Shown: positions 2,833-32,418 of the stretch, one piece after another
Numbering within the stretch: the stretch's first letter is position 1
Layout of the letters: each line of letters opens with the position of its first letter
Assembly: GCA_024697705.1 (NCBI GenBank)
Contig: JAILFF010000151.1
Location: forward strand, 1 to 32,418
DNA: 32,418 bases
Reading direction: 5' to 3'
Source of the DNA: Ruminococcus sp.
GTDB taxonomy: Bacteria > Bacillota > Clostridia > Oscillospirales > Ruminococcaceae
Program-made: the position numbers and the translations under genes
The notes under the pieces: generated by a model
Database searches by the model: none
What the model saw: only the letters and a program-made list of their open reading frames with translations
What the model was told of the DNA's origin: nothing

Positions 2833-2859
2833 ATTTTCACTTCCTTACACCTGATAAAA

Positions 2860-3064
2860 GTTAATAGTTAATAGTGAATAGTTAATAGTTAAGGTGCGCC
2901 TGCGGCGCATATTATGCGGAGGCGTCGCCCCGCACTAATGATAGTTGTCGCTCAACTGTGAAAATCGAGTGCAGAGCTTCACGAACTTGTTCGTGCCTGC
3001 TTCTGCATATTATGCCGCGAAGCGGCTCCTTAACTGTTCACTGTTCACTATTCACTGTTCACTT
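2860..3064. repeat. Heptamer-flanked intergenic element, family A copy 1
   Basis: gttaata/gtgaata heptamers on the left, inverted ttcacta/ttcactg heptamers on the right, GC-rich hairpin core; related copy at 26821-27006. Confidence 0.8.
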
Positions 3065-12066: not shown

Positions 12067-12181
12067 TAAGCAAAATCACCTTTCTTAAAAGATCTACACA
12101 ATAATATTATACCTTTATTAAAGGAAAAAGTCAATAGCATTTTCGGCTCCGTCTCAAAAATACAGCGTCCGATAAAACAAA

Positions 12182-12219
12182 AAAGCTTTGAAACCATACG
12201 GAACAGTTTCAAAGCTTTC
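12182..12219 (-). terminator. tRNA-Thr copy 1 terminator
   Basis: Minus strand AAAGCTTTGAAAC..GTTTCAAAGCTTTTTTGTTT. Confidence 0.8.
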
Positions 12220-12223
12220 GGGA

Positions 12224-12296
12224 AGCTGATACCCGGATTCGAACCGGGGACCTCATCCTTACCAAGGATGTGCTCTACCGACTGAGCCATATCAGC
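12224..12296 (-). tRNA. tRNA-Thr (anticodon GGT)
   Basis: Minus strand cloverleaf: GCTGATA acceptor/TATCAGC, anticodon stem CATCC-TTGGTAA-GGATG, T arm CCCGG-TTCGAAT-CCGGG. Confidence 0.95.
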
Positions 12297-12365
12297 ACCT
12301 CAACATAATTGTTAAGCGCCGGTCTTTGTTTTCATCTTTTCGATGTCTTTCAACCGACGAATACT

Positions 12366-12394
12366 ATTATACACTATAATCATGCTTTTGTCAA
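12366..12394 (-). promoter_or_regulatory. Consensus promoter for tRNA-Thr copy 1
   Basis: TTGACA - 17 nt - TATAAT on minus strand. Confidence 0.85.
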
Positions 12395-12448
12395 TAAGAA
12401 ATCTGAAATTTTTTATTAAATAAAAAAGACAGCGTCAACGGAAACAAA

Positions 12449-12485
12449 AAAGCTTTGAAACCGTCTGCAACAGTTTCAAAGCTTT
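12449..12485 (-). terminator. tRNA-Thr copy 2 terminator
   Basis: Minus strand AAAGCTTTGAAACTG..GGTTTCAAAGCTTTTTTGTTT. Confidence 0.8.
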
Positions 12486-12491
12486 CCGAGA

Positions 12492-12564
12492 AGCTGATAC
12501 CCGGATTCGAACCGGGGACCTCATCCTTACCAAGGATGTGCTCTACCGACTGAGCCATATCAGC
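12492..12564 (-). tRNA. tRNA-Thr (anticodon GGT), second copy
   Basis: 73-nt sequence identical to copy 1. Confidence 0.95.
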
Positions 12565-12632
12565 ACCCTAACAATAATTGTTAAGCGTCAGCTTTGTTTC
12601 ATCTTTTCGATCACTCTCAACTGACAGATTCT

Positions 12633-12661
12633 ATTATACACTAAAAAGCAGTTCCTGTCAA
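12633..12661 (-). promoter_or_regulatory. Consensus promoter for tRNA-Thr copy 2
   Basis: TTGACA - 17 nt - TATAAT on minus strand. Confidence 0.85.
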
Positions 12662-12809
12662 TAGAAAATCGGAATTTTATTATTAAATAATCGTAAACAA
12701 TCAGCAGAGGTTATTTTAACAAGACAACACCGGCGATTTTCCGCGAATAAGCGCACTATTTAAAGACAGATTTAAAGACAGACCAAAGCCGTTCCGATAG
12801 CCGTAACAT

Positions 12810-21452: not shown

Positions 21453-22773
21453 TACTCCCACGGCGGCATACGAAAGATATACTCTCACCGACGATAAATA
21501 TATAAAGCTCGTCGAAAACGCCCTCGATTGGGAACGCCGCCGCCTGAAAAAAGATTCGCTCGCGGAGGGCTTTGCCGAAAGCGGTGCAGCGGGCAGTCCC
21601 GAGGGCGACTGGTTCATGATAGCCGAAAAAGCGCTGGGTACAGAGGACGATTACGCCGCCTACATCAAAGCCTGCGAACAGCCCGAAGACCCCTCCCCCA
21701 CAGAAGCGGCGCGGCGGGCGATAACCGAAAGGCTGCTCACGGGCGGCGGAGACTACACGAACTTGTTCGCGCCAATGCCCGAATACGAGCTTAATGAGCT
21801 TGCGGTCAACGAGATAATTTGGGTCGGAACGGCGGAAAGGCTCTGCGGCGAGAGTTACACAGCTTATCTTGACGAGCTTATCGAACGGCAGAATCCCGAC
21901 GGCAGCTTCGGCATGAGGGGCGACAGCGACCCCGACCTCACCGCCATGTCGCTGATACTTCTCCCGAAAGAGAGCGAACAGGCGGTAAAGGCGCTGGGCT
22001 GTCTTTCCGAGATGTGGCAGAGCGGAAAGATCGCTAACTGCGAAGCCGCCGCCTGGTGCATAATAGGCTGCTGTTCACAGGATATCCGCCCGAACGACAC
22101 CGCCGATTTCCCCGCAGGAATTGACGGCAGAAGACCCATCGACCTGTTGGCGCTTGACTGCCTTTGCCGCGACGGAGGGTTCTCGCACCTTCCCGACGGT
22201 GATGATTCGGCGGCGCTCCCGACCGAACAGGCGCTTCTTGCGCTTGCGGCGCTTGCCGAATCGAACGCGAACGGCAACGGTCTTTTCGATGAAATAACGG
22301 TCGATACGGATATTTACAGTCAGCGAAAAATCAGCGGCGAGAGCTTTGACGAATTTGACGAAGCCGCCGCACGCGAACTTTCGCCAAGCACCGCGAATAA
22401 AGAAGCTCTTTGGGCGCTGCATGAACGGGCGAACTACTGCGGCGCGACCGATGAACAAAAGGCGCTTGCAGATGGAAAAATAACGGAGATACGCGAAAAG
22501 CTGCGCGTAATAAGCGAGCTTAATCTTGAAACGACCGTAAATCTTTACCCGCCGGAGGAAGTCGGTTTTACAAAGCTCGGGCAGCTGACCGAGCATAACC
22601 GCCGCGCCGCCGAAATCGCGGACGAGGACAAAGCTCTGCTGCTGGCGGGGGAAGAGCTTATCAAGAGGGAAAAACGGCTCAAAGCCGAGTGCGCCGCGGG
22701 AATCGCGGGGCTTGCCGTAACGACAGCGGGAGCAGTAATTTTATTTGTAAGGAAAAGGAAAAAGAGAAAATGA
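21436..22773 (+). CDS. Prenyltransferase/squalene-oxidase-repeat-like alpha/alpha-toroid protein with C-terminal TM anchor
   Basis: 'YLDELIERQNPDGSFGMRGDSDPDLTAMSLILL', 'PIDLLALDCLCRDGGFSHLPDGDDSAALPTEQALLALAAL'; C-term 'AGIAGLAVTTAGAVILFVRKRKKRK'; overlaps the previous ORF by 17 nt. Confidence 0.75.
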   Translation: MTYNIDTPTAAYERYTLTDDKYIKLVENALDWERRRLKKDSLAEGFAESGAAGSPEGDWFMIAEKALGTEDDYAAYIKACEQPEDPSPTEAARRAITERLLTGGGDYTNLFAPMPEYELNELAVNEIIWVGTAERLCGESYTAYLDELIERQNPDGSFGMRGDSDPDLTAMSLILLPKESEQAVKALGCLSEMWQSGKIANCEAAAWCIIGCCSQDIRPNDTADFPAGIDGRRPIDLLALDCLCRDGGFSHLPDGDDSAALPTEQALLALAALAESNANGNGLFDEITVDTDIYSQRKISGESFDEFDEAAARELSPSTANKEALWALHERANYCGATDEQKALADGKITEIREKLRVISELNLETTVNLYPPEEVGFTKLGQLTEHNRRAAEIADEDKALLLAGEELIKREKRLKAECAAGIAGLAVTTAGAVILFVRKRKKRK

Positions 22774-23702
22774 TGAGTGAGATAAAACCGCTTTTCGATG
22801 AAATAAACAAGGCGCTTATCGGGCGCGGAGATACCGTGCTGAAATGCCTTACCGCGCTTGTTGCGGGCGGTCATGTGCTGCTCGAAGACAGCCCGGGCGT
22901 CGGAAAGACCACGCTTTCAAAGGCGGTCGCGGCGGCGGCGGGGCTTAAGACAAAGCGCGTGCAGTTCACGCCCGACACCCAGCCCTCCGACATAACGGGC
23001 TTTACGATGTGGGACGCGGAGCAGAAGAAATTCCGCTTTCACGAGGGCGCTGTACAGACGCACGTACTGCTTGCCGACGAGATAAACCGCACCTCGCCGC
23101 GCACCCAGTCGGCGCTTTTGCAGGCGATGGAGGAAGGCGCGGTCAGCGAGGAGGGTATCACCACCGAGCTCGAAAAGCCGTTCATGGTGATTGCCACGCA
23201 GAACCCCTTCGGCGCGGCGGGGACGATGCAGCTGCCCCATTCGCAGCTCGACCGCTTTATGATGAAGCTCTCTCTCGGCAGACCGACCGCCGATGAGCTT
23301 AAAGAGATGATACTCACACGCGGAACGGGAGCGCCCGAGATTCGCTCTGTCGGCAGCCGCGAGGAGATACTTTCCTTTCGAGAAAAGGCGGCTCGGGTCA
23401 AAATATCCGACGCGGCTTCGGAATGGATAGCCCGCCTTACCGAGCTTACCCACTCAAACGAGAATATCGCTCAGGGCGCAAGTCCCCGTGCGGCGCTTTC
23501 GCTTGCGGCGGCGGCACGGGCGGCGGCTTTCATCGACGGGCGCGACTACGTTCTTCCCGAAGATATCGCGGCGCTTTTCGCCGACTGCTTCGCCCACAGA
23601 CTTGTGCTTTCTTCCGCAGCAGGAATGGAAAGCGGTGCGGCGCGTGCCGTCTGCGGCGAGATACTCAAAAGCTGCCCTCCGCCGCACATACTTAAAAGAT
23701 AA
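22770..23702 (+). CDS. MoxR family AAA+ ATPase (operon copy)
   Basis: 'DSPGVGKTTLSKAV', 'LLADEINRTSPRTQSALLQAMEE', 'VIATQNPFG'; ATGA overlap with preceding gene. Confidence 0.92.
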   Translation: MMSEIKPLFDEINKALIGRGDTVLKCLTALVAGGHVLLEDSPGVGKTTLSKAVAAAAGLKTKRVQFTPDTQPSDITGFTMWDAEQKKFRFHEGAVQTHVLLADEINRTSPRTQSALLQAMEEGAVSEEGITTELEKPFMVIATQNPFGAAGTMQLPHSQLDRFMMKLSLGRPTADELKEMILTRGTGAPEIRSVGSREEILSFREKAARVKISDAASEWIARLTELTHSNENIAQGASPRAALSLAAAARAAAFIDGRDYVLPEDIAALFADCFAHRLVLSSAAGMESGAARAVCGEILKSCPPPHILKR

Positions 23703-23906
23703 AAGATAAGAGATAAAAGATATACTTTAATCCCCGTGTTTGAAATTTAAACTAATATTTCACTGTTGCGTATTATATCTATTATCTTTAATCTTTTATC
23801 TTAAAGTAAATGCTCATTTATAGTATCTTATATCTTATATCTCATATCTTTTATCTCATATCTTTTATCGCATATCTTTTATCTTATATCTTTTATCTTA
23901 TATCTT
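23694..23906. repeat. Heptamer-flanked element, family B copy 1 (12-unit heptamer array at 23823-23906)
   Basis: AAAAGAT-type heptamers at 23694-23721; 12 consecutive ATATCTT/TTATCTT-type heptamers at 23823-23906. Confidence 0.85.
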
Positions 23907-24757
23907 TCAACAGTGGGGGGCAGATTATTATTACGGTTATTATAGCGGTCGTTATCCCGCTGATGATAACGGCGGCTGTCATGTATGTGCTTGAAAGGCT
24001 CTCGGACAGGCGCGGGGCGAAGCTTTCTTTCTGCAAAGGGAAAATCGAACTGACGGCTGAGGAAAGCAGACTGTTAAAGCATTACAAGGCTGACATAACG
24101 CTTACGAACCTTTTCACGGGCGAGACCGCCGTCATCAAGGGCGTTCGCTTTTCCTCGCAGGATAAGGCTGTTGTACAAACAAAGCTCGTACCTGCGGCGG
24201 AGGGCTGCTCATGCGGTATGCTCCGCGCCGTGGTTTCAGCCGTGAAATGGCGTTACAGCTTCTGTCCCGCGTATGTTAAGGGCGTTCCTCCGAAAGCGGT
24301 CAGCCGTCTGATAATGCCGCAGGCAGCATCGGGCTTCATTCCCGCTGAGCTTCTTTTTCACATCGCGACTTCCTCCGACGGAATTCCCGACGGCGGCACC
24401 TGCGGCGCGAGAACATACCAACGCGGCGAACGAATGAGCGACATTCACATGAAGCTCTCGGCAAAGATGGGTAAGTACATGGTGCGCGAAAGACTGCCCG
24501 AATACGGTCTGCTGACGTTCGCTTTTTTCTACGAAAAAGGATTTGCCGAAAAAAACGCCGCGCTGCTGCTCGGGTGCGTTGGCGAATGTCTTACACGCGG
24601 AATAAAGTGCCGCGTCTTTTTCGGAGAAGAACAGGCGGCTGTCAATTCTTACGAGGAAATCGAACCTTTATTCGCACAGCTGCTTTCGGCTGAAAGACAA
24701 GCGCCCGCCGAAAAAGCGCAGTTCGGAATAACGCACGGGGAGGTCGTATGCAAATGA
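23810..24757 (+). CDS. DUF58-like protein; ORF start lies in the repeat element
   Basis: Position between MoxR and transglutaminase, 'CGARTYQRGERMSDIHMKLSAK' (DUF58-like 'R.Y..GD....IHWK'), N-terminal hydrophobic segments; translation start uncertain. Confidence 0.7.
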   Translation: MLIYSILYLISHIFYLISFIAYLLSYIFYLISFNSGGQIIITVIIAVVIPLMITAAVMYVLERLSDRRGAKLSFCKGKIELTAEESRLLKHYKADITLTNLFTGETAVIKGVRFSSQDKAVVQTKLVPAAEGCSCGMLRAVVSAVKWRYSFCPAYVKGVPPKAVSRLIMPQAASGFIPAELLFHIATSSDGIPDGGTCGARTYQRGERMSDIHMKLSAKMGKYMVRERLPEYGLLTFAFFYEKGFAEKNAALLLGCVGECLTRGIKCRVFFGEEQAAVNSYEEIEPLFAQLLSAERQAPAEKAQFGITHGEVVCK

Positions 24758-26820
24758 ATTTGACCGCACGAACAATGTTTGTGCCGGATCCCGCTTCGGG
24801 AAAGACGGTCTCCGCGGGGGCGCTCTGCCGAGTTCTCTGCGCGTTTGCCGCCGCGTTCTTCTCGCTTATCTTCGCGGGCTTCGGCTTACCCGTTTATGCG
24901 CTTATCGTCGGCTTGGCGGCTGTTTCTGCGGCTTATTTAAGCGACCGTTCCGAAAGAAAACCCGCCTTTCTGCCGCTGATACTGCTTGCCGCTGTCCCCG
25001 CCGCCATTGCGGGAAGAGACATTCCCTCGCAGGCGGGCAGGATATTCAATGTACTTTCGGACAAGTGGCTCGTCAGGCGGGAGACGCTCACTCCGCTGCT
25101 TGATACGGAAAGCCCGTCTGCGGCGGCGATATGCTTTTTCGCGGCGCTTGCGGGAGCGGTGTTCTTCTTTGCCGCCGTTTCGCGGATAAAGGCTGTACGG
25201 CTCGGGCTTGCGGCGGCGGAGGTGCTTTTCGCGGCGCTTTTTGCCGATGACGCCTTGTCCGTGATGTTCGCGGTCTGCTCGGCGCTGCTTGCCTTTTCGG
25301 ACGAACGATTCGGCATTAACTTCGCTAATGCCGCCGAACCTGTTCTGCGGACGGTCGGAATATCTGCTTGTGTCTGGGCGCTTATCGTCACGGGTGCGGC
25401 GGGGAGCGTTTCCGAGCGGCTTGTCTCGTGCTGTTCGGCAGGAAAGATAAGTCAGGCTAACGGCTCGCTCGACAGGGCTTTTTCGGGCGAAACCGATATT
25501 AAGGCGCTCGAAGTGTCTATGAACGTTCCCGAAGCTATGTATCTTCACGGCTTTCTCGGCTGCAAGCTTGTCGGCGACAAATGGCGGGGCTATGAGCTTA
25601 CGGCACGAGGGACTCGCGAAAAAAACAGAACGGCGCACACCGACATGATATATCTCGCCAAAAGCGGCACCGACGCACAGACCGCGCTTTACACGCTTGC
25701 AAAGAACTCGGGCTGCCGAATGAACAGCGTTACCGTTCGGAATATCGGCGCGGACAAGGGGCTTCTTTATCTGCCCGTGACTTCTTCTGACTGCGGGCAT
25801 AAGCAAGCTTATGCAAACTTCCCTGCCGAATTGAATCTTCCCGCGCACGGGCGAAATACCGTTACGGTCGAAACGCCGCTTGCGCTTCACTCGCTGACGG
25901 ACAGGCTCTCGCAGGCGGCGGCTGACCCCGCGCTTTCGGACGAAGGTGCAGTCAACAGACTTGACGCGCTCTACCGCGAGGAATATCTCGACATTCCCGA
26001 CGGGACGGCTCACTTTTTGGAGACACTGTTTCCCCATGCCGAACAGTACGACATAACGGCGGCGGCAAAGGCGGCTTACGAGTTCTGCAAAGGCTGCGAG
26101 CTTGACAATTCCGCCGCCTGTTCGCTTGCCGAATTCATGCAGCAGACGAAAACAGGCAGTGCGGCGCATTTCGCCTCTGCGGCGGTGATGATCTTCCGCT
26201 ATTACGGTATTCCCGCGAGGTACGCGGAGGGCTTCGCGCTGACACGCAGTCTTGCGGCGGGCAAAGTAAGCGGTTCGCCGATAACTCTGACCGACAAGGA
26301 GCTTCACGCATGGGCTGAGTATTATCTTGACGGCGCGGGCTGGCTGCCGTTTGAGACTGTCCCCTATTATCTCGAGGAAATGCCGCAGCCCGAGGGCTTC
26401 TCCGTAGGCAAGGCAATTTCCGGCAGCGGTCAAAAAAACACCGACAAGCCCGTCAGGGAGCTTTCGGGAACGCGCCCCGCCATGCTCATAAGAGAGGAAC
26501 AGCCGAAGGAAGAAAGCCCGCTCATCGTGCCGATAATCGTTGTTTCGGCGGCTGTCTGTCTGCTGACTGCGGCGGCTTGCAGACATTACCTGTATGTAAA
26601 AAAGCTCAAAGCCGACCCGTGCCGTGCGCTTTCGGAATGTGCGGCTGTACTCGGGAAAAGCTGCGACGAAGCGGGGAATTACGACTTCTCGGACTGCGCT
26701 CCCGACCTTAAAGAAGAGCTTGACGGCTTGCAGGCGGATTGTCTGAACATCGTTTATTGCGGCGGCGAAATCTCCTGCAAACCGTACAGCATACTAAAGC
26801 ATTGCAAAAAAAGTGTATAG
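24748..26820 (+). CDS. Membrane transglutaminase-like protein (MoxR/DUF58-associated)
   Basis: Several N-terminal TM segments; 'YGIPARYAEGFAL...HAWAEYYLDGAGWLPFETVP' Cys/His/Asp transglutaminase core region; C-terminal TM. Confidence 0.85.
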   Translation: MQMNLTARTMFVPDPASGKTVSAGALCRVLCAFAAAFFSLIFAGFGLPVYALIVGLAAVSAAYLSDRSERKPAFLPLILLAAVPAAIAGRDIPSQAGRIFNVLSDKWLVRRETLTPLLDTESPSAAAICFFAALAGAVFFFAAVSRIKAVRLGLAAAEVLFAALFADDALSVMFAVCSALLAFSDERFGINFANAAEPVLRTVGISACVWALIVTGAAGSVSERLVSCCSAGKISQANGSLDRAFSGETDIKALEVSMNVPEAMYLHGFLGCKLVGDKWRGYELTARGTREKNRTAHTDMIYLAKSGTDAQTALYTLAKNSGCRMNSVTVRNIGADKGLLYLPVTSSDCGHKQAYANFPAELNLPAHGRNTVTVETPLALHSLTDRLSQAAADPALSDEGAVNRLDALYREEYLDIPDGTAHFLETLFPHAEQYDITAAAKAAYEFCKGCELDNSAACSLAEFMQQTKTGSAAHFASAAVMIFRYYGIPARYAEGFALTRSLAAGKVSGSPITLTDKELHAWAEYYLDGAGWLPFETVPYYLEEMPQPEGFSVGKAISGSGQKNTDKPVRELSGTRPAMLIREEQPKEESPLIVPIIVVSAAVCLLTAAACRHYLYVKKLKADPCRALSECAAVLGKSCDEAGNYDFSDCAPDLKEELDGLQADCLNIVYCGGEISCKPYSILKHCKKSV

Positions 26821-27006
26821 TTGAAAAGTTAGTTAAAGTGAATAGTGAATAGTTAAGGAGCGCCTTACGGCGCGAATTATGCGCAGGCTGCGCCGCGCAC
26901 TGATTATCGTTATTGAACAACAACTTTTTGCGGCGCTTGCGTCCGCATAATATCGTCCGCGAAGCGGACACCACAACTATTCACTATTCACTATTAACTA
27001 TTCACT
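26821..27006. repeat. Heptamer-flanked intergenic element, family A copy 2
   Basis: gtgaatagtgaatagttaaggagcgcc..ggcgc..attatgcgcag core shared with gene-sense orientation of copy 1; right inverted ttcactattcactattaactattcac. Confidence 0.8.
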
Positions 27007-27025
27007 TATTTTGGGGGAGCGTATA

Positions 27026-27553
27026 ATGATGTTAAGAAAGATGATCGGGCTGTTTGCCGCCGTTCTGATAGCTCTCGGCGGGTCGGGGTGTAAGCTTATC
27101 AGCACTGCGCCACCTACGGTGGTGCCGCCGCCGGAGGATTCGCCCCCTGCCGCCGAGCAGTCAGCCGCAGAGATAAGCGTTACGCTCGACATTGATTTTT
27201 CGGCGGTCTATGAAGCGGCAAATTACGAAAAGCTCGACCCCGCACTGAAAAACGCCGCTCTGCCGCAGGACGGCACGTTCGGCAAGGCGGCTGTGCGTTC
27301 GGCGAAGGAGGGCAGCACCGCGCTCGACGTGCTTCGCGGCTACTGCGACGAGAACGGCATCATGCTCGATGTGCGGCACGGAATGGCGGGTATCTCGGAC
27401 TACGTGCGCGGCATAGGAGGGCTTTCGGAGGGCGACTGCACGCGCAATTCGGGCTGGGTCTACGAGATAAACGGCACCCTCCCCGACGTGGGTATGTCGG
27501 ACACCGTGATGAAGGACGGCGAACATCTTTTCGTGCGGTACATTGTGTATTAA
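27026..27553 (+). CDS. DUF4430 lipoprotein (intrinsic-factor/transcobalamin C-domain-like)
   Basis: Lipobox 'LIALGGSGC'; 'STALDVLRGYCDENGI...YVRGIGGLSEGDCTRNSGWVYEINGTLPDVGMSDTVMKDGEHLFVRYIVY'. Confidence 0.85.
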   Translation: MMLRKMIGLFAAVLIALGGSGCKLISTAPPTVVPPPEDSPPAAEQSAAEISVTLDIDFSAVYEAANYEKLDPALKNAALPQDGTFGKAAVRSAKEGSTALDVLRGYCDENGIMLDVRHGMAGISDYVRGIGGLSEGDCTRNSGWVYEINGTLPDVGMSDTVMKDGEHLFVRYIVY

Positions 27554-27624
27554 AAGATGTAAGATAAAAGATAAAAGATATTTATGCAGTTCGGGGCTTT
27601 GCGCAAAAAAATATCTTATATCTT
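27552..27624. repeat. Heptamer-flanked element, family B copy 2
   Basis: aaaagat gtaagat aaaagat aaaagat - ttcggggctttgcgcaaaa - atatctt atatctt. Confidence 0.8.
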
Positions 27625-27931
27625 TTGCGGCTGTCGGACAGCGAACGGAAACGTTCAATACATCACAACACATTACATCGGAATCGGTTTCCGTTGTAAT
27701 GCCCGAAACCCTTGATTTTACGCGGTTTTGAGAGCTTTCATTACAACACTTCATCAAAATAGGCAAACTTTAAAAAATTTACAGAAGAAAAAATATATAA
27801 AGTTTGGGAAAAGTGTTGTAAGTGTTGTGATGCTGTAAGACAAGCTGTAATAGCGTAGGGTTTTAATTTAACTGTCCTAAATTATGTACCGCATTTCATG
27901 AAGTCTGAGGTCGTGCGGTACATTGTGTATT

Positions 27932-28025
27932 AAAAGATAAAAGATGTAAGATAAAAGATATTAATTCGGTTCGGGGCTTTGCGCAAAAAAAATCTTATAT
28001 CTTATATCTTATATCTTTTATCTTA
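27932..28025. repeat. Heptamer-flanked element, family B copy 3
   Basis: aaaagat aaaagat gtaagat aaaagat - ggttcggggctttgcgcaaaa - atatctt/ttatctt heptamers. Confidence 0.8.
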
Positions 28026-28054
28026 CAACTATTAACTTTTTACAGGTGTGGGTC

Positions 28055-28945
28055 ATGAAAGCATTTTCACGGTTGAATCCGTTTGTACTGATGATATTCT
28101 TCGCCGCCGCCATCGGGACGGGCGTGTTCTGCTATGTTCCCGCTATCCGCGCCGTTTCGCTTGCGGGGGCGGTACTTTCGTTACTCGTTTCGGGGATATG
28201 CCGAAAGCCCGTGCGGGAGCTTCTCGGCTATGCGGGGATAATACTTGTCTCGGGCGTGATAAACCCCGTTATCGTGACGCTCGGGAACACCCCGCTGTTC
28301 TGGCTCGTCGGGCGACCCTACACGCTCGAAGCCCTTCTGTACGGGGCGAATAACGGTATGGCGATAGTCTCGGCGCTTTTGTGGTTCAGGCTATTTTCGG
28401 CGGTGATGACTGCGGAAAAACTGAGCTTTCTCATGTCGGGGACGGTGCTTTCGGGCTTCGGCACGGCGTTCACGCTGACCCTGCGGTACGTTCCCGAGCT
28501 GATACGCCGCTTTAAGGAATGTTGCGCTGCACACCGTGCGAACAAGTTCGCACCGGCGGCGGGAGCCGTTTGCGGCAAGGGCTTTCTTTCGAGGGCGGCA
28601 TTTTATCTTAACGTGTTCATGTCGGTGGCTTCTTCGGCGCTTGAATCGTCGGCGCAGACGGCTGACAGCATGAAGGCGCGGGGGTGTCTGCTTTCGCCCA
28701 AATCGCGGCTGACAACGTATTCTTTGCGGGCTGCGGACGTTCTCTGCGCGGCGCTTTCCGTGACCGCCGTCTGTTCGGCAGTTTTCGCTTCGAGGGCGGG
28801 CAGGCTCTGCGCGGCGTTTTATCCGTCGGTAAAGTCGGAATATCCCCCCGTAACAGCTGTAATGTACGGAGCGCTTTGCCTGCTGCCCGTACTGTTTTCG
28901 ATAATGGAGAGTATAAAATGGCACTTTTGCAGACCGAAAACTTAA
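28055..28945 (+). CDS. ECF transporter transmembrane T component
   Basis: Polytopic; EcfT-like 'ADSMKARGCL' (ARG motif) and N-terminal helices; adjacent to ECF ATPase. Confidence 0.85.
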   Translation: MKAFSRLNPFVLMIFFAAAIGTGVFCYVPAIRAVSLAGAVLSLLVSGICRKPVRELLGYAGIILVSGVINPVIVTLGNTPLFWLVGRPYTLEALLYGANNGMAIVSALLWFRLFSAVMTAEKLSFLMSGTVLSGFGTAFTLTLRYVPELIRRFKECCAAHRANKFAPAAGAVCGKGFLSRAAFYLNVFMSVASSALESSAQTADSMKARGCLLSPKSRLTTYSLRAADVLCAALSVTAVCSAVFASRAGRLCAAFYPSVKSEYPPVTAVMYGALCLLPVLFSIMESIKWHFCRPKT

Positions 28946-30597
28946 GCTTTGCGTACCCCGGCGGCGGCAAAGTCCTTGATAACATCGGCTTTTCGGCGGA
29001 GAGAGGCGAGCTTGTGCTTATCTGCGGCAGCTCGGGCTCGGGGAAGACGACTCTGCTTAGGCTTTTAAAGCCCGATATCGCGCCTTTCGGGGAGCGTTCG
29101 GGAAAAATCATTTATGACGGAAGTGACATATCTGCGCTTGACAACCGCCGCTCGGTCGGCGAGATAGGCTATGTCGGGCAAGACCCGAACGCCGCCGCCG
29201 TCACCGACACCGTTTTAGCCGAGCTTGCCTATCTGCCCGAAAACTTAGGGCTGCCGCGGGGGACAATATTGCGCCGTATCGCCGAGCTTTCGGCGTACTT
29301 CGGGCTGGAGCATCTTATCGACAGGAGGATAAGCGAGCTCAGCGCGGGGCAGAAGCAGCTTGTTCAGCTGGCGGCGGTTGCACGAGCATACCTCGTGCCG
29401 TCGGCTTCGCCCTCGCTGCTGCTGCTCGACGAGCCGACGGCGCAGCTCGACCCGCGTTCCGCAGAGGTTTTCCGCAATATCATACTGAAAATCCGTTCGG
29501 AGCTCGGCACGACGGTCATCATCTGCGAACACGATACAAGAGGGCTTTTCGGCAGCTGCGACCGTCTGCTTTATCTCGAAAACGGCAGACAGCGCTTTTT
29601 TGTACAAAATCCGTTTGTGCCGCCGCACGAACAGTGTACAAACTCCGTTTGTACCGCGGCAAGGCTTATCGGCACCGAAGCGGAGGACGCTCTCCCCTGC
29701 TGCTATCGGCTTTCGGCGGCGCTCGGGCTTGATAAGCCGCTCAAAGACGCAGCCGCCGCAAGAAATTATCTGCTTGAAAATAAGCCCTCTGCTTTGCCCG
29801 AGACAAAAGAATATCAGCCCGATAAGGAGATAGCCGTCAGCATAAAGAACATATATTTCAGCTATACGAAGCACGGCAGAGACGTTCTTGCGGGGCTCAC
29901 GCTTTCGATACCGAAGGGCAGTATCACAGCGGTTTTCGGCGCGAACGGCACGGGCAAAAGCACTCTCTTGAAGATAATTTCGGGCGTGTACCGACCGTTC
30001 GAGGGCAGCATTAAGATATTCGGCAAGAGCGTCAAAAGCTGCTGCGGGACAGCCATGCTTCCGCAGGACCCGCATCTGATACTGACCGAGAAGACGCTTC
30101 TTAAGGACATCAAACGCGGCTGCGACCTGCCCGACATCGAAGGCGAAATTGCGCGGCTTTCGGAAACGCTCGGGCTTTCTGCCGAAACACTCGGAAGGTA
30201 TCATTACGACTGCTCGGGCGGCGAGCTTCAGCGGGCGGCGCTCATGAAGCTTCTGATAAAAAAGCCGCGTCTGCTGCTTCTCGACGAGCCCGAAAAGGGG
30301 CTTGACTGCGGGAACAAAAGGCGGCTGACGGGAATACTTAAGCGCTTTGCTGAGGGCGGCGGGACGGTCATATTCGTGACCCACGACGCGGAATTTGCCG
30401 CCGAGACCGCCGACAGCGCCGTTATGATGTTCGGAGGTATCTGCGCCGCTCACGAGCCGATTAACGCCTTTCTTTCGGAGGGCGAGCTTTTCACGACCGA
30501 AGCGGCGCGTATCGCAAGGGGCATTATTCCGGGCTGCGTCACCGCCGAACAGCTGATAGACTGCTGCCGAAGGGGGCTGACGGCTGACGATGAATAA
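28918..30597 (+). CDS. ECF transporter ATPase, tandem duplicated A-A' fusion
   Basis: Two ABC domains: 'GSSGSGKTTLLRLL' with 'LSAGQKQLVQLAAVARA' and 'LLLLDEPTAQLD'; 'GANGTGKSTLLKII' with 'CSGGELQRAALMKLL' and 'LLLLDEPEKGLD'; true start ATG 28918. Confidence 0.93.
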   Translation: MALLQTENLSFAYPGGGKVLDNIGFSAERGELVLICGSSGSGKTTLLRLLKPDIAPFGERSGKIIYDGSDISALDNRRSVGEIGYVGQDPNAAAVTDTVLAELAYLPENLGLPRGTILRRIAELSAYFGLEHLIDRRISELSAGQKQLVQLAAVARAYLVPSASPSLLLLDEPTAQLDPRSAEVFRNIILKIRSELGTTVIICEHDTRGLFGSCDRLLYLENGRQRFFVQNPFVPPHEQCTNSVCTAARLIGTEAEDALPCCYRLSAALGLDKPLKDAAAARNYLLENKPSALPETKEYQPDKEIAVSIKNIYFSYTKHGRDVLAGLTLSIPKGSITAVFGANGTGKSTLLKIISGVYRPFEGSIKIFGKSVKSCCGTAMLPQDPHLILTEKTLLKDIKRGCDLPDIEGEIARLSETLGLSAETLGRYHYDCSGGELQRAALMKLLIKKPRLLLLDEPEKGLDCGNKRRLTGILKRFAEGGGTVIFVTHDAEFAAETADSAVMMFGGICAAHEPINAFLSEGELFTTEAARIARGIIPGCVTAEQLIDCCRRGLTADDE

Positions 30598-31288
30598 CGA
30601 GCATTTTAAAAGAGCGCTGTTCATTCTCTCGGTGCTGACGCTCGGCGCGGCGGCGGGTATGGGTGCTGTTAACAGCGGGAGCGGCAGAAATATGTCTCTT
30701 TCGATAACGGCGGCGGCGGCTTCGGGGCTGCTTGCGATGGCGGCTTTCTCGGGCAGGATAAAGGAGCCGCATTACATAACGCTCGTGTCGGTGCTTTCGG
30801 CGCTTTCGGTCACGGGGAGGATTGTTTTCGCGCCGTTTGCGGGGTTCAAGCCCTGCACGGCGGTGATCATCACGGCGGGAATGTGTCTCGGCTGCGATGC
30901 GGGGTTCATCACGGGGGCGCTGACGGCTTTGGTGTCGAATTTCTACTTCGGGCAGGGCTCATGGACGCTCTATCAGATGCTCGCGTGGGGGATAGTCGGC
31001 ATCGCGGCGGGCTTATCGGGAAAGCTGCTGCAAAAAAGCCGTGCGGCGCTTCTGATCTTCGCGGCGCTTTCGGGCGGGGTGTATTCGCTCATTATGGACG
31101 TTTTCTCGACCTTCTGGGCTGACGGCTACTTCAATATGCTGCGGTTCGCGGCGCTTACGGCAAGCTCTCTGCCGCTGACGATAACCTACGCGGTGTCGAA
31201 CGTGGTCTTTATCGCCGTGCTTTCGGACAGGTTGTGCTTTACCGTTCTGCGGATAAAAAACAAATACGGCATCGGAAGAAAGATATAA
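30590..31288 (+). CDS. ECF transporter substrate-specific S component (CbrT-like, predicted cobalamin)
   Basis: Six-TM S-component pattern 'SVTGRIVFAPFAGFKPCTAVIITAGMCLGCDAGFITGALTALVSNFYFGQGSWTLYQMLAWGIVGI'; overlaps ATPase stop; specificity inferred from riboswitch. Confidence 0.82.
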   Translation: MNNEHFKRALFILSVLTLGAAAGMGAVNSGSGRNMSLSITAAAASGLLAMAAFSGRIKEPHYITLVSVLSALSVTGRIVFAPFAGFKPCTAVIITAGMCLGCDAGFITGALTALVSNFYFGQGSWTLYQMLAWGIVGIAAGLSGKLLQKSRAALLIFAALSGGVYSLIMDVFSTFWADGYFNMLRFAALTASSLPLTITYAVSNVVFIAVLSDRLCFTVLRIKNKYGIGRKI

Positions 31289-31354: not shown

Positions 31355-31462
31355 CTGCATAAATGCCTGCTTGTCTGCATACAATTTAACAAGCACTAAA
31401 AAAGATAACCTCGTCCCGCGAAAACCGTAAAAATCACTTTCCCACCGACAAATAAAATTCGT

Positions 31463-31607
31463 TCTCACTACGGTAAAAAGCGTGTAATTACGTGGGGTTT
31501 ACGTAATGAGATCAAAATCTCACTACGGTAAAATAACGGTATATCGTGTTTTCTCCGTAGTGAGATTGAAATTATATATTTAGGGATTTGAATCTCACTA
31601 CGGTAAA
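31463..31607. repeat. Array of alternating-orientation 15-bp repeats (TCTCACTACGGTAAA)
   Basis: Direct copies at 31463, 31518, 31593; inverted copies at ~31498-31511 (degenerate) and 31553-31567. Confidence 0.8.
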
Positions 31608-31646: not shown

Positions 31647-32418
31647 ATGAACACCGAAACGTCGTCAAAATTCGCGCAGGCGGTGACGCTTCTTCCCGAG
31701 CCGCTCAAAGCCGCCGCTTTAAGCATAGACCGCTTTCAAGCAGAGCGCGTCCGAGAGCTCAGGCTTCGGCGGGGACGGCGCTTCACGGCGAGCTTGCCCG
31801 ACAGAGAATACTTCATCACGGCGGACGGCGCTCTTTCCGATTCGCCCGAAAACACGCTGACGGTAAGCTCCGCCGACATCGAATATACGTTCAAGACTGC
31901 CTTTCAAGGCTCGGTGTACGCCTTTCCGAAGGAGCTTTCGGAGGGGTTCATCACCTGCGGCGGCAACAGGGTGGGCTTCTGCGGGAGCGCCGTGCTTTCG
32001 GACGGCAAGCTTACGGTGGTCAAGGAGATATCGTCGGTCAATATCCGAATAGCAAGCGAGATCGTCGGCTGTGCGGAGGAGCTTTACGAAAAAGCCTTTG
32101 CGGGAGGGCTGCGTTCGCTCATCATCGCCGCGCCGCCCTGCGGGGGAAAAACGACCGTGCTGCGCGACCTCTGCCGTATTTTAGGCAATACGCGCCGTGT
32201 GACCCTTATCGACGAGCGCGGGGAATTCGCCGCCGCAAGCGGAGGTATCCCTCAGAACGACGTAGGGGCGCACACCGACGTTTTCAGCGGCTACCCGAGA
32301 CACGAGGGCATAATGACCGCCGTTCGCGTGATGTCGCCCGAGGTCATCGTCTGCGACGAGCTAGGCGCTCCCGAAGACCTGAAAGCTCTCGGCTTCGCGG
32401 CTAATTCGGGCGCGGCGC
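31647..32418 (+). CDS. spoIIIAA: Stage III sporulation protein AA (truncated by window edge)
   Basis: Translated by eye: 'SSVNIRIASEIVGC', 'LIIAAPPCGGKTTVLRDLCRI', 'VTLIDERGEFAAASGG', 'VRVMSPEVIVCDELG'; RBS aaaggaaa; absent from ORF track because it is open-ended. Confidence 0.9.
   Translation, partial: MNTETSSKFAQAVTLLPEPLKAAALSIDRFQAERVRELRLRRGRRFTASLPDREYFITADGALSDSPENTLTVSSADIEYTFKTAFQGSVYAFPKELSEGFITCGGNRVGFCGSAVLSDGKLTVVKEISSVNIRIASEIVGCAEELYEKAFAGGLRSLIIAAPPCGGKTTVLRDLCRILGNTRRVTLIDERGEFAAASGGIPQNDVGAHTDVFSGYPRHEGIMTAVRVMSPEVIVCDELGAPEDLKALGFAANSGAA

Follow-up and report, generated by a model that had tools for sequence, protein, structure and literature searches.

Heptanucleotide arrays around the moxR–DUF58-like spacer of a Ruminococcus-like rumen bacterium: a probable non-coding boundary rather than a coding phase switch

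Is the heptanucleotide array that precedes a DUF58-like gene in a Ruminococcus-like rumen bacterium (G000) the translated 5′ end of that gene, or is it non-coding DNA that happens to be open in frame? The array lies between this gene and moxR in the window, the whole stretch of 32,418 nt that was analyzed. The initial annotation regarded it as the 5′ coding end of the gene and as a possible phase-variable switch, with ATG 23810 as one of three candidate starts.

Sequence inspection, Tandem Repeats Finder and a lag-7 test placed the array at positions 23824–23907 (forward strand, on which all features of this locus are given), where it consists of 12 TATCTTW-type heptamers. The twelve consecutive units reported earlier at 23823–23906 correspond to this array with a phase offset of one base. 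In order, the units are TATCTTA, TATCTTA, TATCTCA, TATCTTT, TATCTCA, TATCTTT, TATCGCA, TATCTTT, TATCTTA, TATCTTT, TATCTTA and TATCTTT. Tandem Repeats Finder gave a score of 133 with a 14-nt dimer and 110 with the 7-nt unit. Identity at lag 7 was observed at 60 of 77 positions, which exceeded the best values in resamplings, namely 38 (60 first-order Markov sequences, whole window) and 42 (2000 sequences, local spacer), indicating that the array is not due to chance. The source assembly is a fragmented metagenome-assembled genome (MAG) of 343 contigs, and its assembly may have altered the array length.

The reading frame through the array was examined by translation. The ORF at 23810–24757 (315 aa) is open from ATG 23810 across the array, and the four 7-aa repeats described previously, SILYLIS, HIFYLIS, FIAYLLS and YIFYLIS, were recovered in frame. 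The array sits at the 5′ end of this ORF, and its 12 units make a multiple of three, while the tandem unit itself does not. Tandems of TATCTTA, TATCTTT or TATCTCA are devoid of stop codons in all forward frames, and each frame gives a similar heptapeptide repeat, 7 and 3 being coprime; in the reverse orientation, the same tandems carry stops in all three frames. Therefore, an open frame through the array is automatic and proves little. A control scan of 101 distinct array ends, from loci of the source and related genomes, found 21 with a Shine-Dalgarno (SD)-like sequence and then a start within 60 nt. More than half of these (11/21) were open in frame back across the entire array, a count that is approximate because simple SD and ORF criteria were applied without a gene caller. 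A heptamer array that lacks stops and lies next to a ribosome-binding site thus easily mimics a phase-variable coding repeat, and the frequency of open arrays at genes with ordinary starts offers a simple control.

Codon usage was scored in bits per codon after training on the other genes of the window. The array scored −0.70 and the whole extension −0.44, compared to +0.43 for the gene body. From the first ATT to 23962, the score was approximately zero (−0.06), and it was clearly positive from ATG 23963 (+0.68). Codon usage within the array is that of non-coding DNA.

The start proposed earlier, ATG 23810–23812, lies in the right end of a dispersed repeat, from which it derives, shows no visible SD sequence, and is absent from the sister species G010 (a MAG of uncultured Ruminococcus sp. 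RUG12221). Translation from this ATG, with the array as coding sequence and the gain or loss of one unit turning the gene off as in neuO, is consistent with the 315-aa frame, the multiple of three, the neuO precedent for heptamers (PMC13001214) and the difference in unit number between species. However, this model is unlikely in view of the automatic openness, the non-coding codon usage and the origin of the ATG, and it would leave a good downstream SD sequence without use.

Two arrays in inverted orientation, of TAAAAGA type on the left and TATCTTW type on the right, enclose the moxR–DUF58-like spacer. The left-hand array comprises approximately four TAAAAGA-type heptamers at 23693–23722 and contains the final codons and the stop (TAA 23700–23702) of the moxR-type AAA ATPase gene (22770–23702). 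A second moxR-type AAA ATPase gene is present in the window at 1147–2127. Comparison with other genome copies identified 23714–23823 as a dispersed MITE-like repeat, of which the core and the right end are present in this copy and the left end is missing. The repeat is short, occurs in approximately 25 copies in the source genome, and has the terminal inverted repeats TAAATGAGCATTT... and ...AAATGCTCATTTA. Full-length copies start approximately with TAAATGAGCATTTGTAAATAAGA and finish approximately with AAAGTAAATGCTCATTTATAG, and short heptamer runs are found in both arms. Among the copies, the left arm measured 35/36, 28/29 or 21 nt and the right arm 35, 28 or 21 nt; besides the 1-nt variant of the left end, these lengths step by 7 nt, indicating that units have been gained and lost. 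No consistent target-site duplication around the copies was seen by eye. Source-genome contigs also break at copies of this repeat (L046, L047 and L050, corresponding to C188, C63 and C187). C187 and C188 have a flank in common, and at the start of C63 its own flank is repeated in inverted orientation, all of which are probably assembly artefacts.

In the spacer RNA, the inverted arms can pair (MFE, −51.6 kcal/mol; z, −3.5), and an effect on the transcript is therefore possible. Because the left arm has only approximately four units, the stem is limited to that number, and additional right-hand units cannot extend it. A hairpin sequestering the SD sequence was present in the long fold but was rejected, as the local fold of 23905–23995 was no better than those of shuffled sequences (z, −0.34). 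An Rfam search returned only a sub-threshold chance match, inside moxR. An array acting in the leader or promoter region, its length tuning expression as at hmw1A with an AUU start retained, would agree with this pairing and with the position of array ends near the SD sequences of the DUF58-like and other genes, and it has a precedent with a nearly identical unit (PMC8262952). By analogy with that system such tuning can be envisaged, but it seems improbable at this locus, since the same arrays are also found next to many unrelated genes and the stem could not lengthen with extra right-hand units.

The start of the DUF58-like gene was then sought downstream of the array. The proposed SD sequence, GGGGGG at 23915–23920, is conserved in G010. 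As the initial annotation had stated for the frame of the gene, canonical starts are lacking here, and no ATG, GTG or TTG follows GGGGGG at SD distance in any frame. GTG 23913 was rejected as a start, being out of frame and soon followed by a stop. The in-frame codons past GGGGGG are ATT ATT ATT ACG, with the ATT triplets at 23924–23932, and the next in-frame ATG is at 23963. Of the start options offered previously, the third, a non-canonical ATT, is favored here. In G009 and G003, the array is absent and the gene overlaps moxR at ATGA. A gapless count by hand from the invariant F37 brings the ATG starts of these two homologues to ATT 23927 and the starts of fused homologues in G008 and G006 to ATT 23930; because the MAFFT alignment has a gap of four residues near the N-terminus, this mapping is not unique and serves as an argument, not a proof. 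GGGGGG is located 6 nt before ATT 23927 and 9 nt before ATT 23930, and G-rich SD sequences are common ahead of ATG at other array ends. In a structure model of modest confidence, the predicted N-terminal helix spans residues 2–26 counted from 23921, an extent that would fit a start at the ATT triplets and would be cut by a start at 23963.

AUU is a rare and weak start codon, which speaks against its use here. Conserved AUU/AUA starts with strong SD sequences are known in Firmicutes, where they gave approximately 10% of AUG output in reporters (PMC13009471). Judging from the sequence comparisons, initiation at AUU 23927, possibly at AUU 23930, directed by GGGGGG, is the most likely reading. If so, gene callers would pick ATG 23810 or ATG 23963, and the automatic annotation of both species would be incorrect. 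A start at ATG 23963, with everything upstream untranslated, would be the first canonical in-frame start past the array and would coincide with the rise in codon score, but it is very unlikely, as it has no preceding SD sequence, would remove approximately half of an N-terminal hydrophobic helix that is present in homologues, and follows a stretch that is unchanged in G010. Overall, the heptamer array is probably the non-coding right arm of an inverted pair that bounds a spacer with a truncated MITE-like insert, and the gene behind it most likely starts with AUU.

The gene itself (23927–24757 with the proposed start) sits between moxR and a transglutaminase gene. Its protein had no match at E ≤ 1 in Pfam or NCBIfam, including DUF58 (PF01882). 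It resembles a protein of G044 (E value, 6e-4), which in turn matches DUF58 just below the cut-off. The label is based on synteny and homologues, and hence only the term DUF58-like is used. The quality of the structure model was too low for a fold to be assigned (pLDDT, 66; pTM, 0.44), and no PDB match was found at E ≤ 0.001. A dN/dS of 0.22 against G010 demonstrated purifying selection, indicating that the gene is maintained.

The arrays of the window are intergenic. Inverted arrays around other contents were also found at 27551–27625 and 27931–28025, and a second family, with AGTKAAY units around GC-rich cores, at 2855–3063 and 26837–27006. The 3′ end of gene 27026–27553 and the adjoining TAAAAGA array are duplicated approximately 380 bp downstream (27531–27560 and 27912–27945). 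Other repeats of the window are a 267-bp tandem duplication at 12175–12690, the copies of which are 87% alike and carry two tRNA-Thr (GGT) genes, and a 17-nt repeat, AATCTCACTACGGTAAA, in three copies with inverted partners at 31455–31607, before the gene at 31647. When three consecutive TAWRAGA units were searched for, overlapping matches numbered 162 in the source genome, 139 in G012, 54 in G010 and one in G001, and the nine remaining genomes of the genus had no match. A four-unit search in a draw of 199 genomes of the family, which did not contain G010, matched only the source genome and G012. AGTKAAY arrays gave 75 overlapping matches in the source genome and none in 60 other drawn genomes of the family, and similar arrays occur in G010. 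The literature searched contained no published description of such arrays in Ruminococcus, which is weak evidence of absence.

The sister species G010 is syntenic with window positions 23880–31270 except for the spacers, and the DUF58-like proteins of G010 and the source genome share 76% identity. The last array units, CAACAGTGGGGGGCAG and the codons up to approximately 23992 are identical in DNA, the GGGGGG leader and the first codons of the gene being conserved, and identity drops beyond. At this junction, G010 has approximately four units, a different insert, and neither the MITE-like core nor ATG 23810. The sole start of its upstream open frame is a TTG without an SD sequence, located in unrelated sequence. 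The outer arrays at the moxR/DUF58 junction (right side) and at the gene-27026/ECF junction are retained, and the enclosed DNA is wholly different between the two species; the G010 contig stops before moxR, and the comparison of that spacer covers its right side only. In G010, the DUF58 and ECF junctions share one insert sequence. These comparisons suggest that inverted heptamer arrays, which are specific to the lineage, form the borders of intergenic regions and that the enclosed DNA is replaced from one species to another.

Unit numbers also differed at other orthologous arrays. By our own count, the array before the ECF-type gene has approximately five units in the source genome and four in G010, and the AGTKAAY-family array before gene 27026 has approximately five and 15 units, respectively; these comparisons, like that of 12 with approximately four units at the DUF58 junction, rest on one assembly per species. 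The ECF-type gene and gene 27026 have ordinary SD sequences and ATG starts, so the variation is not tied to coding use. The instability that had been proposed for the array is thus real over evolutionary time, as seen in the orthologous junctions and in the 7-nt steps among repeat copies, and the proposed switching is not supported: the array evolves in unit number, and nothing shows switching.

No nucleotide differs between the two species in the first 23 codons of the DUF58-like gene, so that codon comparison offers no test of coding there. Synonymous changes were found in 0 of 20 degenerate codons among the first 24 and in 57 of 179 in the remainder, a contrast that speaks for the AUU reading, and the synonymous difference was 0.03 for the first 23 codons and 0.48 for the remainder. 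The first codons of five other genes were not low in synonymous difference, and an equally low window occurred once, in the transglutaminase gene. A particular constraint on the nucleotides of these 23 codons was therefore not adopted; the pattern is suggestive, and recent recombination could also explain it.

A history of the locus can be proposed. In the ancestral state, moxR and the second gene would have overlapped at ATGA with shared stop and start bases, as in the array-free relatives. An array-bounded insert may then have entered and separated the two genes, although this order of events is inferred. The left array would have provided moxR with a stop, and the ATG that overlapped the moxR stop would have been lost from the second gene, presumably through the loss of the overlap. 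The DUF58-like gene is now most likely translated from AUU behind GGGGGG, probably at low yield. Unit number would drift via slippage or recombination, altering leader length and not the reading frame. More tentatively, in a few species of one genus, inverted heptamer arrays might serve as exchangeable borders of intergenic cassettes, with the DUF58-like gene having survived spacer capture via AUU. If this were the case, array-to-array recombination would exchange spacers and leave the genes untouched, providing a route for the rapid replacement of intergenic regulatory DNA.

Heptamer arrays and non-canonical starts have been described in other bacteria. In neuO of E. coli K1 phage CUS-3, the coding heptamer AAGACTC was shown to be translated and varies within strains (PMC13001214). 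Both arrays lie beside the 5′ end of an ORF, the frame of which would depend on unit number if the array were translated; repeat translation was demonstrated for neuO, whereas it is not supported here. At hmw1A/hmw2A of Haemophilus influenzae, the length of an ATCTTTC heptamer array was shown to tune expression (PMC8262952). That array is likewise non-coding, nearly the same in sequence, and located upstream of a gene in the leader of one transcript, but the arrays in our study stand at many unrelated genes. For the start codon, conserved AUU/AUA starts with extended SD sequences are exemplified in Firmicutes by cvfC1 of Staphylococcus aureus (PMC13009471). The DUF58-like gene similarly has a G-rich SD sequence at a normal distance from AUU and no canonical start in range, an arrangement kept in two species; the published starts were mapped by experiment, and the AUU start here is proposed from comparison. 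The nearest published analogue in position and behaviour is the TAACTGA heptamer, which forms intergenic direct repeats in Beggiatoaceae, some Cyanobacteria and Bacteroidetes (MacGregor, 2015; PMC4679880). In both systems, a genome contains numerous heptamer arrays between genes, many of them directly 5′ of start codons; both show a scattered distribution and indels in 7-nt steps, between close strains there and between relatives here. They differ in the unit, in stop codons, which forward TAACTGA carries in all frames and TATCTTW in none, and in that the arrays described here form inverted pairs around an insert, with apparently exchanged spacers.
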